Shown one piece after another: positions 9,650-44,036 of a DNA stretch of 64,000 nt; within the stretch, counting starts at the first letter, position 1; each line of letters begins with the position of its first letter. The notes under the pieces were generated by a model, which worked only from the letters and a program-made list of their open reading frames with translations, made no database searches and was not told the origin of the DNA. Where the stretch lies: the NCBI RefSeq assembly GCF_003258365.1, contig NZ_QHKM01000001.1, positions 1,116,001 to 1,180,000 of the forward strand, read 5' to 3'. The position numbers and the translations under genes were made by a program. The stretch comes from Hymenobacter edaphi. GTDB lineage: Bacteria; Bacteroidota; Bacteroidia; Cytophagales; Hymenobacteraceae.

Positions 9650-10223
9650 CCACCTGCAGGCACTGGACCGCTGGCTGCTGGTGTCGGCCAATAACGCCGC
9701 CACCCCCGGCCTCGACCGGCTCATGATTTTCTTTTCCGACCGCCTCGTGTGGTTTCCGGCATACTTTGTCATCGTCGTGGCCCTGTGCTACTACGTTGGC
9801 CGGCGCGCCACCCTGCTGCTGCCCCTGCTGGGCCTGAGCGTGGCCCTGGCCGACAGCATCAGCAGCCGCTTTTTCAAGCCCTACTTCGCCCGCCTGCGCC
9901 CCTGCCACGACCCGGACCTCTCGGCCACGCTGAACCTGGCCAACGGCTGCGGCGGGCAGTTTGGCTTCATTTCCTCGCACGCGGCCAACGCCTTCGCCCT
10001 GGCCGTGTTCCTGTGCCTGGCCCTGCCGCCACGCTTTCGCGCCGCCAAAGCCCTGCTGCTCGCCTGGGCCGCGCTGGTCAGCTTCAGCCGCATCTACCTG
10101 GCCGCCCACTACCCCTCCGACGTGCTGGCCGGCGCCACGCTGGGCAGCCTGCTGGCCTGGGGCTGCCACCGGCTGTACCGCAAAGGCACCCAGCGCTGGT
10201 ACCCCGCCCCACCGACGGCGTGA
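9642..10223 (+). CDS. PAP2-family phosphatase (lipid phosphatase)
   Basis: The 193-residue integral membrane protein carries the three PAP2 signature motifs: KPYFARLRP (KX6RP), ISSHAANAF (PSGH-like, with the catalytic His) and SRIYLAAHYPSDV (SRX5HX3D, nucleophile His). Four or five hydrophobic helices lie between them. Such enzymes dephosphorylate phosphatidate, undecaprenyl diphosphate or similar membrane lipids. The N-terminus LDRWLLVSANNAATPGLDRLM is typical of the bacterial undecaprenyl-diphosphate phosphatase/PgpB-like group. The start is TTG 9642, inside the hemF stop region, which implies translational coupling. The exact lipid substrate is not decidable. Confidence 0.9.
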   Translation: MIDHLQALDRWLLVSANNAATPGLDRLMIFFSDRLVWFPAYFVIVVALCYYVGRRATLLLPLLGLSVALADSISSRFFKPYFARLRPCHDPDLSATLNLANGCGGQFGFISSHAANAFALAVFLCLALPPRFRAAKALLLAWAALVSFSRIYLAAHYPSDVLAGATLGSLLAWGCHRLYRKGTQRWYPAPPTA

Positions 10224-10292
10224 GTTGGCAGTTGGCAGTTGGCAGTTGGCAGTTGGCAGTTGGCAGTTGGCAGTTGGCAGTTGGCAGTTGGC
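10224..10292. repeat. tandem array of the 7-mer GTTGGCA (about 9.9 copies)
   Basis: Nine perfect copies and a partial tenth of GTTGGCA begin on the base after the PAP2 stop codon. Unlike the other 7-mer junctions in the window it has a single arm and is perfect rather than degenerate, so it is either recent or prone to slippage. Confidence 0.95.
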
Positions 10293-18080: not shown

Positions 18081-18866
18081 GTGGACGACGCCACCCTCGC
18101 CTTTTACCAGCAGCTCTACGCGGGCACGCCGCTTTACGTGGTGCCCGAGCCCGGGGCCGCCCTTCCCGCCGCGCCGGCCGCCCCGGCGGCGGCTCCTGCA
18201 GCAACTTCTGTGACAGCGGCCGCCCCTACGCCGCCGGTTGCTGCCCCTGGCCCCGTAGCAGCGCCCAGGCTGCCGGCCGCGGCCGCCCCGCCAGCGCCCG
18301 AAGCGGCCCCGGCCGCCCCCGGCCGTTTGCCTTCGTTGGCGGATTTGCGCGCCGCCCGGCTGGCGGTGGCTCCGCCGCCCCCGGGACCTGCTCCGGCTCC
18401 GCTCCCGCCGCCCGTGGCCGCCCCCATGCCCGTGCCGGCTGCACCGCCCGCGGCCCCCGTGCGCCAGCCCACCCCGTTCGATACGCTGGGCAGCAACGCC
18501 AACGGCCTGGTGCTGCTGGTGCGCCTCGATGACCCGGAACGGCTGCCGCGCATTCAGCGCAACGTGTTTCTGAACAACATGCTCAAAGCCATTCAGCGGG
18601 TGATGGAGGAGTGCGTCGTGGTGAACGTCCGCTCCCCCTACCCGGTGAGCCTGGAGGACCTGCGGGCCCGCGGCCTGGCGGTGCGCGAGGTTATCGGCTT
18701 CGGCAAAAACCTGCTCGACGTGGCCACCAAGCGCACCGAGCCCTACGAGCCGGTGCGCATCGGCGACGTGGCCTACCTGCCCGCCGCCGAAGTGGAAATC
18801 ATCGAGTACGACAACGGCCGCAAGAAACAGCTCTGGCAGGCCTTGCAGCGGATGTTCCTGGGGTAG
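18081..18866 (+). CDS. hypothetical protein: Ala/Pro-rich linker plus conserved C-terminal domain
   Basis: The 261-residue protein reads from GTG 18081 (VDDATLAFYQQLYAGTPLYVV). After a short N-terminal head come about 115 residues of Ala/Pro-rich low complexity. A compact C-terminal domain (about 150-261) contains NANGLVLLVRLDDPERLPR, NVFLNNMLKAIQRVMEECVVVNV, REVIGFGKNLLD and VEIIEYDNGRKKQLWQALQRMF. A head and a globular C-terminal domain joined by a flexible linker suggests an adaptor between two partners. I do not recognise the family. A TATCTTCG string at 18032 could be its own -7 box. Confidence 0.65.
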   Translation: MDDATLAFYQQLYAGTPLYVVPEPGAALPAAPAAPAAAPAATSVTAAAPTPPVAAPGPVAAPRLPAAAAPPAPEAAPAAPGRLPSLADLRAARLAVAPPPPGPAPAPLPPPVAAPMPVPAAPPAAPVRQPTPFDTLGSNANGLVLLVRLDDPERLPRIQRNVFLNNMLKAIQRVMEECVVVNVRSPYPVSLEDLRARGLAVREVIGFGKNLLDVATKRTEPYEPVRIGDVAYLPAAEVEIIEYDNGRKKQLWQALQRMFLG

Positions 18867-19016
18867 TTGTCAGTTGTCAGTTGTCAGTTGTCAGTTGTCA
18901 GTTGTCAGTATGTACTGGGCGGCGGCTTGGGAGTTACGAAAAAGGCCTACGGCTTGCGCCGCGGGCCTTTTTTGGTGGGCGTCGGTCTGACAACCGACAA
19001 CTACCAACTGACAACT
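18865..19016. repeat. inverted arms of the 7-mer AGTTGTC enclosing a terminator
   Basis: Six perfect AGTTGTC copies (18865-18906) begin inside the TAG stop of the upstream gene. The right arm (tgacaac, cgacaac, taccaac, tgacaac) ends in the TAA stop of the convergent TlpA gene. Between them AAAAAGGCC...GGCCTTTTTT (18939-18973) forms a terminator. Confidence 0.9.
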
Positions 19017-40492: not shown

Positions 40493-42802
40493 GTGCTCCA
40501 ACCCCGCTCCCTCAGCCTGCTCACCCTGGCCGCCCTGGCCCTGCTGGGCCTGCTGGCCCTCACCGGCCTGCTGCGCCTGCGCTTCAACTACAATTTCAAC
40601 GACTTCTACCCCACCGGCGACCCGGACCTGGCCTACTACCAGGACTACGCCCGGCGCTTCGGCAACGACAACGACTACGTGCTGGTGGGCCTGGAGGCCC
40701 CGGCCGGCCGCACCGTGTTCGACGCCGATTTTGCCCGCCGCGTCGACGCGTTTACACGCTTTGCCCAGCGGCAGCGCAACGTGCGCCAGGTGGTGTCGCC
40801 CACCACGGCCAGCAACCCCATCGTGGAGGGCCTGGGCGTGTTCAACGTGCCCTACCTGCACCTCGACCAGCTCGGCCGCGACCCGGCCAGCCGCGCCCGG
40901 GACTCGGCCCTGATCTACCGCACGCCCGGGCTGGTGGGCAACCTCTTCGCGCCCGACGCGCGGGCCGTGGCGGTGGTACTGCAAACCACGCCCGACCTCA
41001 AGAAGCCGCCCGGCGACACGCTGCTGGCCGCGCTGCGCGGGGAGCTGCGGCGCCTGGGCGTCGGGGACGAGCAGATTCACTTCGGGGGCAAGATGGTGGC
41101 GCAGTCGGTGTTTGTGGACCGGCTGCGGGTGGAAATGGCGGTGTTCGTGTCGCTTTCGGTGCTGCTGGTGATGGGGCTGCTCTGGCTCACGTTCCGGGCC
41201 TGGTGGGGCGTGGTGCTGCCCCTGTCGGTGGTGGCCGGGGCCACGGTGGGCGGGCTGGCGCTGGTGGGGTGGTCGGGGGCGGGTATCGATCTGATGACCG
41301 CCCTGCTGCCGGTGATGATGTGCGTGGTGGGCATTGCCGACTCGGTGCACCTGCTCACGCGCTACGTGACGGAGACGGGGGAAGGCACCCCCACGGTGCC
41401 GGCCCTGCGCATCAGCATGCGGGAGTCGATGTTCGGCTCGGGGCTGTCGGCGCTGACCACGTCGCTGGGCTTTTTCACGCTCACGGCCAGCCACATCCGG
41501 CCCATTCACAACTTCGGGCTGTACACAGGGCTGGCGGTGCTCATTGCCTACGCCCTGTCGTTCACGCTGCTGCCGGCCCTGCTGGTGCTGCTGCCGCGGC
41601 CGCAGCAGAAGTTCGGGGCCGGGCGCAGCTGGGACGGGCCGCTGATGCGCCTGCTGGCCTGGGTGCTGCGGCGGCGGGCCCTCATCGTGGGGGCGGCAGC
41701 GGTGCTGGTGGTGGGCGCCCTCGCGGCCGCGTCGCAGGTGCGCATTGAGTCGCGGCTGCTGGATGACCTGGCCGACGACGACCCGGTACAATTGGACTTC
41801 CGCTTTTTCGAGCGGGCGTTTGCCGGCGTGCGCCCCTTCGAGCTGCACCTGCTTCCGCAGGGCGGGCGCACCGTCTACAGCCTCGACGTGCTGCGCGAAA
41901 CCGAGGAAATCGAAGCGTACCTGCAAAGCCGGTACGGCCTGCGCTTCGTGGCCTCGCCGGTGACGGTGGTCAAGTCCCTGCGCAAGGCCCTGAACGGCGG
42001 GGCGCTGGCGGAATACCGTCTGCCCGACTCCGAGGCCGAGCTGCAGCGCCTGCTGCGGCGGCTGCGCCCGTTTCGGAAGAAGCCCGAGTTTCGGGCCCTG
42101 GCCCTCGACGACGCCCGGCAGGGCCGCCTGACCGGCCGCATGCCCGACCCGGGCAGCACCACGGTGGCCCGCCTGAACCGGGGCCTGCAGCAATTCCTGC
42201 GCACCCACACCGACCCGGGCGTGCTGCGCACCCGCCAGACCGGCTCGGCCCTGCTCATCGACAAGAACAACCAGAACCTCACCCGCGACATGCTGCTGGG
42301 CATCGGGATGGACGTGGTGATGGTCACGGTTATCGTGCTGGCGCTGTTCCGCTCCTTCCGCATGGTGCCGGTGGTGCTCATTCCCAACCTGCTCCCCATC
42401 GTGGTGGTGGGCGGGGTGATGGGCCTGTGCGGGGTGCCCATGAAAGTCAGCACCAGCATCATCTTCACCATTGCCTTCGGCATTGCCGTCGACGACACCA
42501 TTCACTTCATTACCAAGCTGCGCCTGATGCTGGGCAAGGAGCCCACGGTGGAAGCGGCCGTGCGCCACACCTACCGGCTGGCCGGCAAGGCCGTCATCGT
42601 CACCTCCCTCATCCTGGTCGGCGGCTTCAGCACCCTGCTTTTCTCCTCCTTCGACGGCACGTTCTACGTGGGCCTGCTCATCGGCCTGACGCTGCTCTTC
42701 GGCGTGGTGGCCGAGCTGACGCTGCTGCCCATCCTCATCCTGCATTTCTACAAGAAGCCCCGCGTGGGCCGGGCCCGGCGGCTGACGGCCTCAGAAAAGT
42801 GA
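40493..42802 (+). CDS. MMPL/RND-family transporter
   Basis: The 769-residue protein has 12 predicted membrane helices in two halves: one N-terminal helix, a large periplasmic loop (about 30-215), five helices (about 220-370), one helix near 395-420, a second loop (about 425-590) and five helices (about 600-755). The helices show VMMCVVGIADSVHLL and ALLPVMM in the first half and FTIAFGIAVDDTIHFITKLRL in the second, the MMPL-type proton relay with Asp residues. Such proteins export lipids, sterol-like lipids or other hydrophobic compounds. It reads from GTG 40493. It stands alone: no adaptor or outer-membrane channel is adjacent. Immediately after its stop begins the phased palindrome array. 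Confidence 0.9.
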   Translation: MLQPRSLSLLTLAALALLGLLALTGLLRLRFNYNFNDFYPTGDPDLAYYQDYARRFGNDNDYVLVGLEAPAGRTVFDADFARRVDAFTRFAQRQRNVRQVVSPTTASNPIVEGLGVFNVPYLHLDQLGRDPASRARDSALIYRTPGLVGNLFAPDARAVAVVLQTTPDLKKPPGDTLLAALRGELRRLGVGDEQIHFGGKMVAQSVFVDRLRVEMAVFVSLSVLLVMGLLWLTFRAWWGVVLPLSVVAGATVGGLALVGWSGAGIDLMTALLPVMMCVVGIADSVHLLTRYVTETGEGTPTVPALRISMRESMFGSGLSALTTSLGFFTLTASHIRPIHNFGLYTGLAVLIAYALSFTLLPALLVLLPRPQQKFGAGRSWDGPLMRLLAWVLRRRALIVGAAAVLVVGALAAASQVRIESRLLDDLADDDPVQLDFRFFERAFAGVRPFELHLLPQGGRTVYSLDVLRETEEIEAYLQSRYGLRFVASPVTVVKSLRKALNGGALAEYRLPDSEAELQRLLRRLRPFRKKPEFRALALDDARQGRLTGRMPDPGSTTVARLNRGLQQFLRTHTDPGVLRTRQTGSALLIDKNNQNLTRDMLLGIGMDVVMVTVIVLALFRSFRMVPVVLIPNLLPIVVVGGVMGLCGVPMKVSTSIIFTIAFGIAVDDTIHFITKLRLMLGKEPTVEAAVRHTYRLAGKAVIVTSLILVGGFSTLLFSSFDGTFYVGLLIGLTLLFGVVAELTLLPILILHFYKKPRVGRARRLTASEK

Positions 42803-42821
42803 GCAATAGCTAGACCCTGTT

Positions 42822-43089
42822 TCCGAATGATTCGGATGCAGCGGAGAAGCATTATCCCCCTATGTCGAAATTTTCGACAGCATATCCGGCGCCTTCTACC
42901 CCTATGTCGAAATTTTCGACAGTGTGTCCGGCGCCTTCTCCCCTCATGTCGAAATTTTCGACAGTGTATCTGACACGTCCGACCCTGTTTCCGAATAATT
43001 CGGATGCAGGGTCGGACGTGTCGGGAAGGTGTCCGAATCATTCGGATGCCAGGTCGGAGGCGTCGACTACGTCGCCGGATTTTTCGACC
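42822..43089. repeat. array of six palindromes with exact 42-bp spacing, plus a hybrid seventh
   Basis: Six palindromic cores are centred at 42829, 42871, 42913, 42955, 42997 and 43039, each 42 bp apart. Three are TGTCGAAA-T-TTTCGACA (at 42863, 42905, 42947) and three are TCCGAAT-N-ATTCGGA (at 42822, 42990, 43032), in order B-A-A-A-B-B. All fit CGAAWNWTTCG. A seventh unit at centre 43081 has a B-like left half (GCCGGAT) and an A-type right half (TTTCGAC). This fills most of the 494-bp gap between the MMPL gene and the next gene; no credible protein is encoded. Confidence 0.92.
42972..43022. repeat. 51-bp near-perfect palindrome inside the array
   Basis: GACACGTCCGACCCTG (42972-42987) and CAGGGTCGGACGTGTC (43007-43022) are perfect 16-bp inverted arms that enclose the core at 42990, so the fifth unit forms a 51-bp hairpin. 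Confidence 0.9.
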
Positions 43090-43281
43090 TGACTTGGGTA
43101 GAGCTGCCGGCCAGGCGGGTAGGCGGGGGACGGGTAGCCGGGGACGAAGTTGGTGGCCGGGTCGGGCGCCGGGGAGCGGTGGCGCTTCGTGGGGGGCATC
43201 TGAGCGGCGGTGGGCAGGGCTGGCGGGGCAGCAGAAGCCCCTGATTTTGGCGCGGCACCCAACCAGCGCGGCCGGGCTGCG

Positions 43282-43289
43282 TACTTTTG
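43282..43289 (+). promoter_or_regulatory. -7 element TACTTTTG, giving a near-leaderless mRNA
   Basis: An exact TAnnTTTG lies only 7 nt before ATG 43297, so transcription should start at or within a few nt of the start codon. Confidence 0.6.
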
Positions 43290-43296
43290 CCCAGCT

Positions 43297-43881
43297 ATGA
43301 AATACCCCGTTTGCCTGCTGCTGGCCGCCACGCTGGCCTTTCCGTCCGTTGCCCAAACGCTCGCGCCGCCCGACGACGCGGTGCCCGGCCTGATCCGGGA
43401 GCGGGAGCAGCTCATCAAAGAATACGAGGCCGCCAGCGCCCAGCGCAACGCCTTTCTGGCCAACAAGCCTTCCAAGAAAGACCTGGAGGAAGTCATCGGC
43501 GCGCTGAAGGGCATCATCCGCAAGGATTCCGAAATCGTGCAGGCGCTGAAGGCCGGGGAGCTGCGCCGCCAGGCCAGCATCGTGGCCGAAAAGCAGCAGG
43601 CCGTGCAGCAGGCCACCGTGGCCCAGACCGACCAGACCTCCACCAAGGAGCGGTTCTACGACCTGGAAAACCAGATTGCCAACCTGGAGCTGCGCGACAA
43701 GCAGCGCGAGAAAAAACTCCGCGAGGCCGAAGCCGCCGCCCACGAGGCCCAATCGGGCCGCACCACGCCCCAGCTGCTGGCCGTGGGCCTGGCCCTGCTC
43801 AGCCTGGGCCTGCTGGGCTACGTGGCCAAGCTGCGCGGCCAGCTGAACGGCGCCCCCCGCCGCAGCGCCAAGCGCCGCTAG
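43297..43881 (+). CDS. hypothetical exported coiled-coil protein with C-terminal membrane helix
   Basis: The protein (194 residues from ATG 43297) has a signal peptide (MKYPVCLLLAATLAFPSVAQ) and a long helical, charged, Gln/Glu-rich region that should be coiled coil (about 30-150; LIREREQLIKEYEAASAQRNAF, DLENQIANLELRDKQREKKLREAEAAAHEAQ). One membrane helix follows (LLAVGLALLSLGLLGYVA) and a short basic tail (RGQLNGAPRRSAKRR). The topology is a periplasmic coiled coil anchored in the inner membrane. I recognise no family. It is the first gene after the phased array and starts from a -7 box that lies 7 nt from the ATG. Confidence 0.75.
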   Translation: MKYPVCLLLAATLAFPSVAQTLAPPDDAVPGLIREREQLIKEYEAASAQRNAFLANKPSKKDLEEVIGALKGIIRKDSEIVQALKAGELRRQASIVAEKQQAVQQATVAQTDQTSTKERFYDLENQIANLELRDKQREKKLREAEAAAHEAQSGRTTPQLLAVGLALLSLGLLGYVAKLRGQLNGAPRRSAKRR

Positions 43882-43961: not shown

Positions 43962-44036
43962 GTAGAGACGCGTATTCGCGTTTTGTCGTCCGCACCGCGT
44001 GCCGTTCAACGATGAGACGCGAATACGCGTCTCTAC
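43962..44036. repeat. inverted repeat with 20-bp perfect arms
   Basis: GTAGAGACGCGTATTCGCGT (43962-43981) and its exact inverse (44017-44036) flank a 35-bp middle. Just upstream is a CGTCATCCTGAGCGCAGCAAAG string that I know as a widespread dispersed repeat in GC-rich Bacteroidota. The element fills the gap between two genes and may be mobile. Confidence 0.85.

Follow-up and report, generated by a model that had tools for sequence, protein, structure and literature searches.

Phased palindromes behind an MMPL-family transporter gene of Hymenobacter edaphi belong to a class of intergenic arrays with a step of about two helical turns

Based on dyad chain scans and an intergenic lag scan we found that an array of palindromes in a 64,000-nucleotide stretch of Hymenobacter edaphi DNA (the window; contig C11 of the 6.04-Mb genome, G000) is one of a class of Hymenobacter arrays that have a step of about two helical turns and letters that differ from array to array. 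At two loci compared with a sister species the place and the step were kept while the letters evolved fast or were replaced, and at a third the letters were related. That one spacing recurs in arrays of differing letters suggests an agent that gauges distances along the DNA and not its sequence. In the literature searched we found no description of such arrays.

An earlier reading of the window, made from the letters alone, had placed six palindrome centres at 42-bp steps, and the dyad chain scan confirmed their exact positions and constant step (Table 1). When at least 7 pairs were required in arms of 8, no other chain of three or more equally spaced dyads was present in the 64 kb, and none of ten dinucleotide shuffles gave such a chain; at the looser 6/7 pairs the window has two further three-dyad chains, and 3/10 shuffles have one or two. 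TRF and a repeat finder both gave a period of 42. A hybrid seventh palindrome, also proposed earlier, is present in phase but weak, Watson-Crick pairs being found at 4/10 positions of its arms. Between A-type and B-type dyads a change on one arm is matched by a change on the other (52/70 arm cells Watson-Crick); when the right arms were re-dealt among the units, 42.4 ± 2.7 cells paired and 0/1000 re-deals reached 52, while the extra pair types were not unusual under the same re-deal (869/1000). With permuted columns the dyad test gave a z of 5.8 (0/300). A second possible dyad family, 21 bp on, was not symmetric in this array (19/60 cells; 993/1000 shuffles as high). No Rfam model matched the array above its gathering score, and the sub-threshold matches were to microRNA models; the best, mir-3130 on the 25-bp-arm hairpin (42969-43025; 43.4 bits, gathering score 95), was attributed to chance, this hairpin being nearly perfect.

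Table 1. Features of the array and of its surroundings, in window positions.
Feature	Position	Strand	Remarks
MMPL-family transporter gene	40493..42802	+	stop codon 10 bp before array
Whole phased array (six dyads and one weak, 42-bp steps)	42812..43095		ends set by eye
B-type dyad 1, centre 42829	42822..42836		dyad chain scan
A-type dyad 1, centre 42871	42863..42879		dyad chain scan, repeat finder, core search
A-type dyad 2, centre 42913	42905..42921		dyad chain scan, repeat finder, core search
A-type dyad 3, centre 42955	42947..42963		dyad chain scan, repeat finder, core search
25-bp-arm inverted repeat around B-type dyad 2	42972..43022		92% complementary, 1 nt between arms
B-type dyad 2, centre 42997	42990..43004		dyad chain scan
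B-type dyad 3, centre 43039	43032..43046		dyad chain scan
Weak hybrid dyad, centre 43081	43071..43091		in 3' part common to sister species
-7-like box TACTTTTG	43282..43289	+	kept in array-less relative G006
194-aa gene, family unassigned	43297..43881	+	no Pfam match

The nearest relative is the sister species Hymenobacter jeollabukensis 1-3-3-8 (G002), in which the corresponding site carries an array that likewise advances by 42 bp, but with inner palindromes of a different sequence. Ten dyad positions, some of them not strong, follow each other at this step. The final 133 bp of the array are common to both species at 84%, and the inner units of the sister partly follow the pattern CTGCCGC...GCGGCAG and have a second dyad 21 bp further along (52/90 cells compared with 42.9 ± 3.3; 2/1000 as high). 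The proposal that phase and symmetry outlast sequence is supported, with the 42-bp step retained over replaced inner palindromes. Because the step is preserved in the sister despite its different arms, and recurs in additional arrays of different sequence, the duplication of one unit is insufficient, in agreement with the earlier view that duplication explains only part of the array.

The MMPL gene was present in 8/8 genus genomes searched. In G006, whose MMPL is 94% identical, the spacer is by our count 47 bp and holds no array, and both the -7-like box and the downstream gene are kept. No 42-bp array was seen, reading by eye, in the MMPL spacer of the other five genus genomes. In G001 the MMPL stop codon is followed, at the place of the H. 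edaphi array, by a nearly perfect palindrome of 53 nt that encloses a smaller dyad (L051, 3834-3886).

The exact window cores were confined to the window array, with none elsewhere in its own genome. A blastn search of the array against 120 family genomes, its own included, gave matches at E <= 1 in 56; below 0.001 there were matches only in G000 itself, which had no further strong match beyond the window array, and in the sister, the latter to its array (2e-32) and to a 45-base stretch elsewhere (4e-4) where no array was seen. Pairs of the common core CGAAWNWTTCG at free spacing occurred in 1/8 genus genomes and in 8/204 family genomes. The pair at 42 bp, for which a search of related genomes had been proposed earlier, was found in 1/204, namely H. 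edaphi alone. The other pairs were 44 bp apart and of near-identical sequence in G011, G095, G367 and G419, 49 bp apart in G397 and 38 bp apart in G025 and G056; a backward-read control pattern gave 9/204 family genomes, so that single pairs outside G000 were not above the control. In IMG/VR a 42-bp core pair was found on two contigs carrying one same stretch, with no array by eye, and the phages and plasmids searched gave no match. A scan for TAGAAGC pairs matched 235/291 order genomes, with much background, and was uninformative on phase.

The class became apparent from a scan for self-similarity at lags 15-99 in predicted intergenic regions of at least 150 bp (z of at least 7, simple sequence repeats removed). 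Sixteen of the 21 remaining intergenic matches in Hymenobacter fell at lags 21, 42, 63 or 84, the other five at 41, 43, 54, 72 and 93; only four of the 85 scanned lags are qualifying multiples of 21. Counted as distinct loci, 13/18 had lags that are multiples of 21, three loci having been counted in both species. H. edaphi (1.66 Mb, 570 regions) contributed 14 matches, 12 of them not simple repeats, at lags 21 (three), 42 (four), 63, 84, 41, 93 and 72; by eye, lag 93 is a tRNA-like pair and lag 72 looks like a leucine-rich-repeat coding stretch. The contig of H. jeollabukensis (123 regions) had six matches, at lags 42 (three), 21, 43 and 54, and 70 other Hymenobacter loci (619 regions) had four, of which three were not simple repeats (lags 63, 21 and 42). 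Lags 21 and 42 also led in a scan without gene prediction, in which one dinucleotide shuffle gave one match at the loosest threshold and none at the next two. Coding-looking matches were set aside by codon score (63/82 in G000), which makes 'intergenic' partly a matter of selection. The 42-bp step, exact at the window locus, is not universal; other arrays step by 21, 41 or 43 bp. On 1.66 Mb of contig C11 we found ten arrays that differ in sequence, which makes the suggested partition-type site unlikely.

Outside the genus, 50 loci of other families and of the order (452,249 bases) showed by eye no intergenic array of 21 or 42 bp. One intergenic-looking array with a 28-bp unit and dyads of the form TGGTCA..TGACCA was seen in another family of the order (L264, 7238-7575; 1/300 permutations as high). 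The lag scan of these stretches gave five matches other than simple repeats, at lags 84, 63, 15, 39 and 45, with a gene model that was trained on G000 and does not fit them. In H. jeollabukensis two near-identical palindromes of about 41 nt (GATGTTATACTATTT..AAATAGTATAACATC) lie 54 bp apart (C24, 7794-7901; L275).

Of the 18 arrays that were mapped between genes with our own gene predictor, 14 have tandem neighbours, two have divergent ones and two convergent ones. With ends set by eye, five of the 18 start directly past a stop codon, the window array at 10 bp and the others at 4-25 bp. Ten of 18 listed neighbour proteins of arrays were tested; their NCBIfam matches include dnaN, a pcrA/uvrD-type helicase, an acetate-CoA ligase (acs), carB and a moeA-type protein, two of the ten had no NCBIfam match, and neither a replication initiator nor a cas gene was found among them. 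The identity between units at the best lag was about 45-78% in the seven arrays profiled, and yet these remain in phase.

The arrays are of two kinds, namely head-to-tail arrays of 21 bp and arrays of 41-43 bp with dyad symmetry. The dyad test by column permutation gave 0/300 in the five arrays that do not have 21 among their five best lags (the window array, L156, L212, and p1 and p4 of G002) and also in the 41-bp array and the 43-bp array. Clear palindromy at period 21 was absent from all ten 21-bp arrays tested, for which 17 to 217 of the 300 permutations were as high as the observed value; at period 42 this number was 1 to 89. Compensatory changes between arms were clearest in the 41-bp array, with 6 extra pair types compared with 2.1 ± 1.1 (0/1000). 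In p4, L212 and L156 the arm re-deal left the pairing unchanged or even higher, and their symmetry may come from shared descent of the units. If a 42-bp unit had a dyad at each of its half positions, it would correspond to a 21-bp module in alternating orientation. Some 21-bp arrays have a common consensus, as seen for p2 in both species, for L184 with L174 and for L088 with L101; overall, 10/66 array pairs had at most 10/200 permutations as high, and the p3 arrays of the two species were outside the 25 best consensus pairs. The L174 array holds a break, with lags of 104 and 125.

Four arrays of H. jeollabukensis were traced to H. edaphi. One is that of the window locus, with a common step and differing inner units. 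At p2 a 21-bp array with related letters is present in both species. At p3 both species have arrays between which blastn found no alignment, and the flanks are 91.7 and 90.4% identical. At p4 the array of H. jeollabukensis stands against a 73-bp gap without an array in H. edaphi. When 19 arrays were aligned by wraparound to their own consensus, we counted 1072 mismatches and 13 gap bases at a gap cost of 3, and 1131 mismatches and 5 gap bases at a cost of 5, with 86 mismatches and no gap base in the window array; this low gap count is no clean test of phase because the scan itself favours arrays that are in phase. Between the species, the aligned array stretches had 78 substitutions and 5 indels (one a multiple of 21, four not), where about 9 indels were expected from the 5,590 substitutions and 626 indels of ordinary intergenic DNA (8.9 to one). 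The between-species indels thus show no clear phase constraint and about the ordinary ratio, in a small number.

We tentatively propose, as the best reading but one that may well be wrong, that the arrays are a BIME-like DNA element that tolerates sequence change and is specified by phase. Its modules would measure about two helical turns (21 bp), placed head to tail or as dyads at 41-43 bp, and what is read would be their geometry, the dyads or modules being aligned in phase along one helical face, and not the letters. As with BIMEs, the reader could be a DNA-binding or topology protein that accepts varied sequences, acting at gaps between mostly ordinary genes, some of them directly past a stop codon. 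Whole-module slippage or unequal exchange, perhaps together with template switching at hairpins, would renew the letters and keep the arms symmetric, and selection would remove changes that are out of phase. Of the interpretations offered earlier, the phased structural element is the one that survives; simple phased bending is disfavoured, and gyrase-like wrapping unsupported, because an AT rhythm of 10.5 bp was not general across the arrays (13/300 null values as high in the window array, 1/300 in L156). The coming and going of arrays (p4 is not in H. edaphi and the window array is not in G006) also speaks against the proposed element, as does the 28-bp-unit array in another family. A stronger form, which we consider rather unlikely, is that dozens of intergenic sites on Hymenobacter chromosomes serve as addresses defined by spacing, with phase and dyad symmetry selected and sequence free, and are read by a two-turn protein lattice or a topoisomerase.

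An element whose spacing and symmetry persist through sequence replacement between two sister species would escape searches for sequence conservation altogether, and lag scans at helical steps could expose the same class in other genomes. If true, such an element could naturally serve to test how far chromatin and topology factors of bacteria read DNA geometry, and also whether mutation works with a ruler of two helical turns.

The closest known likeness is to BIMEs and REPs, which are described as extragenic, regularly spaced palindromic units of alternating orientation (PMC2817692, PMC3733652), the alternation of a single module being the presumed counterpart here. Most REPs are located downstream of genes, between neighbours that are in tandem or converge (PMC3733652), and BIME-2 binds gyrase (PMC2817692). 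In contrast to these, we met no high-copy palindrome family spread over the genome, the cores being private to their locus; among the 120 family genomes only the array of the sister matched strongly, and letters were replaced between sister species while the step was kept. We have not filed the window array as a BIME because the shared consensus at high copy is absent. One Y1_Tnp (RAYT-type) match was found in the genome, on another contig (C41). Plasmid iterons are direct repeats of about two helical turns whose sequence is private to each replicon, a likeness to the present arrays; these, however, are at many chromosomal loci and have a palindromic variant, and their tested neighbours include no replication initiator, with an MMPL gene adjoining the window array. 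CRISPR arrays likewise have partly palindromic repeats at even steps, but here the spacer part itself repeats, the arms vary between units, and no cas gene was found among the neighbours or among six window proteins tested, so the earlier exclusion of a CRISPR holds.

The main rival, a serious possibility that we nevertheless doubt, is a functionless class of minisatellites maintained by mutation alone, with a two-turn ruler, whole-unit slippage and template switching at hairpins. Like minisatellites or VNTRs, the arrays consist of tandem units of one length, are gained and lost between close relatives, and have homogenised inner units beside a common 3' end. In addition, template switching at quasipalindromes is described for E. 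coli (PMC7202029), and the between-species array indels are not clearly fewer than elsewhere. On the other hand, this rival alone leaves unexplained why arrays of different sequence have a common step of 21 or 42 bp, and why few gap bases accompany more than 1,000 within-array mismatches (a count that carries the bias of the scan noted above). The dominance of 21 and 42 and the dyads above null in the 42-bp kind speak against an ordinary minisatellite of free unit length and no kept symmetry, which had been named earlier as a refuting outcome.

It is improbable that the arrays are transcribed in 3' regions into a series of RNA hairpins (as a terminator, mRNA stabiliser or processing site). The starts shortly past stop codons would fit this, as would the strong folding of the window array (z -9.6 and -9.4 on its two strands) and its sense-strand G-T mismatches, which exceed A-C by 12 to 6. 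However, over six arrays together there was no wobble strand bias (62 vs 55), the change between A and B arms extends to the base beside the centre, where an RNA loop would be expected, 2/18 arrays lie between divergent genes, and RNA does not need a fixed step.

Very improbable is an operator array of a cooperative dimeric regulator, whether for the gene at 43297, as had been suggested, or for the MMPL gene. Perfect dyads on one helix face would suit it, and two CGAAWNWTTCG dyads 38 bp apart lie directly upstream of a gene in two genus-g6 genomes (L299 and L300, both at 1501-1549), a gene that looks BlaI/MecI-like by eye, so that such dyads can be operators. Operators would have a conserved recognition sequence with a regulated gene, which is not seen here: the cores are private to this locus and are replaced in the sister. 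TACTTTTG, which we take to be a -7-like box before the ATG at 43297, lies about 190 bp beyond the array, whose end is about 200 bp ahead of the 194-aa gene. A sequence-specific operator is unlikely because G006 has the promoter and the gene without the array.

A repetitive protein-coding frame of 7- or 14-residue repeats is hardly credible, for although the window array has one open frame, both 21 and 42 can be divided by 3, 3/15 arrays have three or more open frames and 11/63 of the coding-like matches set aside in G000 also fall at lags 21, 42 or 63, the coding scores were negative in ten G000 and four G002 arrays (noncoding being a score below 0.05, with the scores nearest zero, -0.06 and -0.13, overlapping the lowest 1-5% of coding chunks), 4/15 arrays have stops in all six frames, and the 41-bp array cannot keep a frame.

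Elsewhere in the window, an inverted repeat at 43962-44036 (GTAGAGACGCGTATTCGCG ... CGCGAATACGCGTCTCTAC) resembles a hairpin that adjoins the p2 array of H. edaphi (C11, 1281868-1281945) and may be a member of an interspersed palindromic repeat family. Additionally, the window holds perfect heptanucleotide repeats, AGTTGGC x10 and AGTTGTC x6.4, at 10223-10292 and 18865-18909, which are possible phase-variable tracts.
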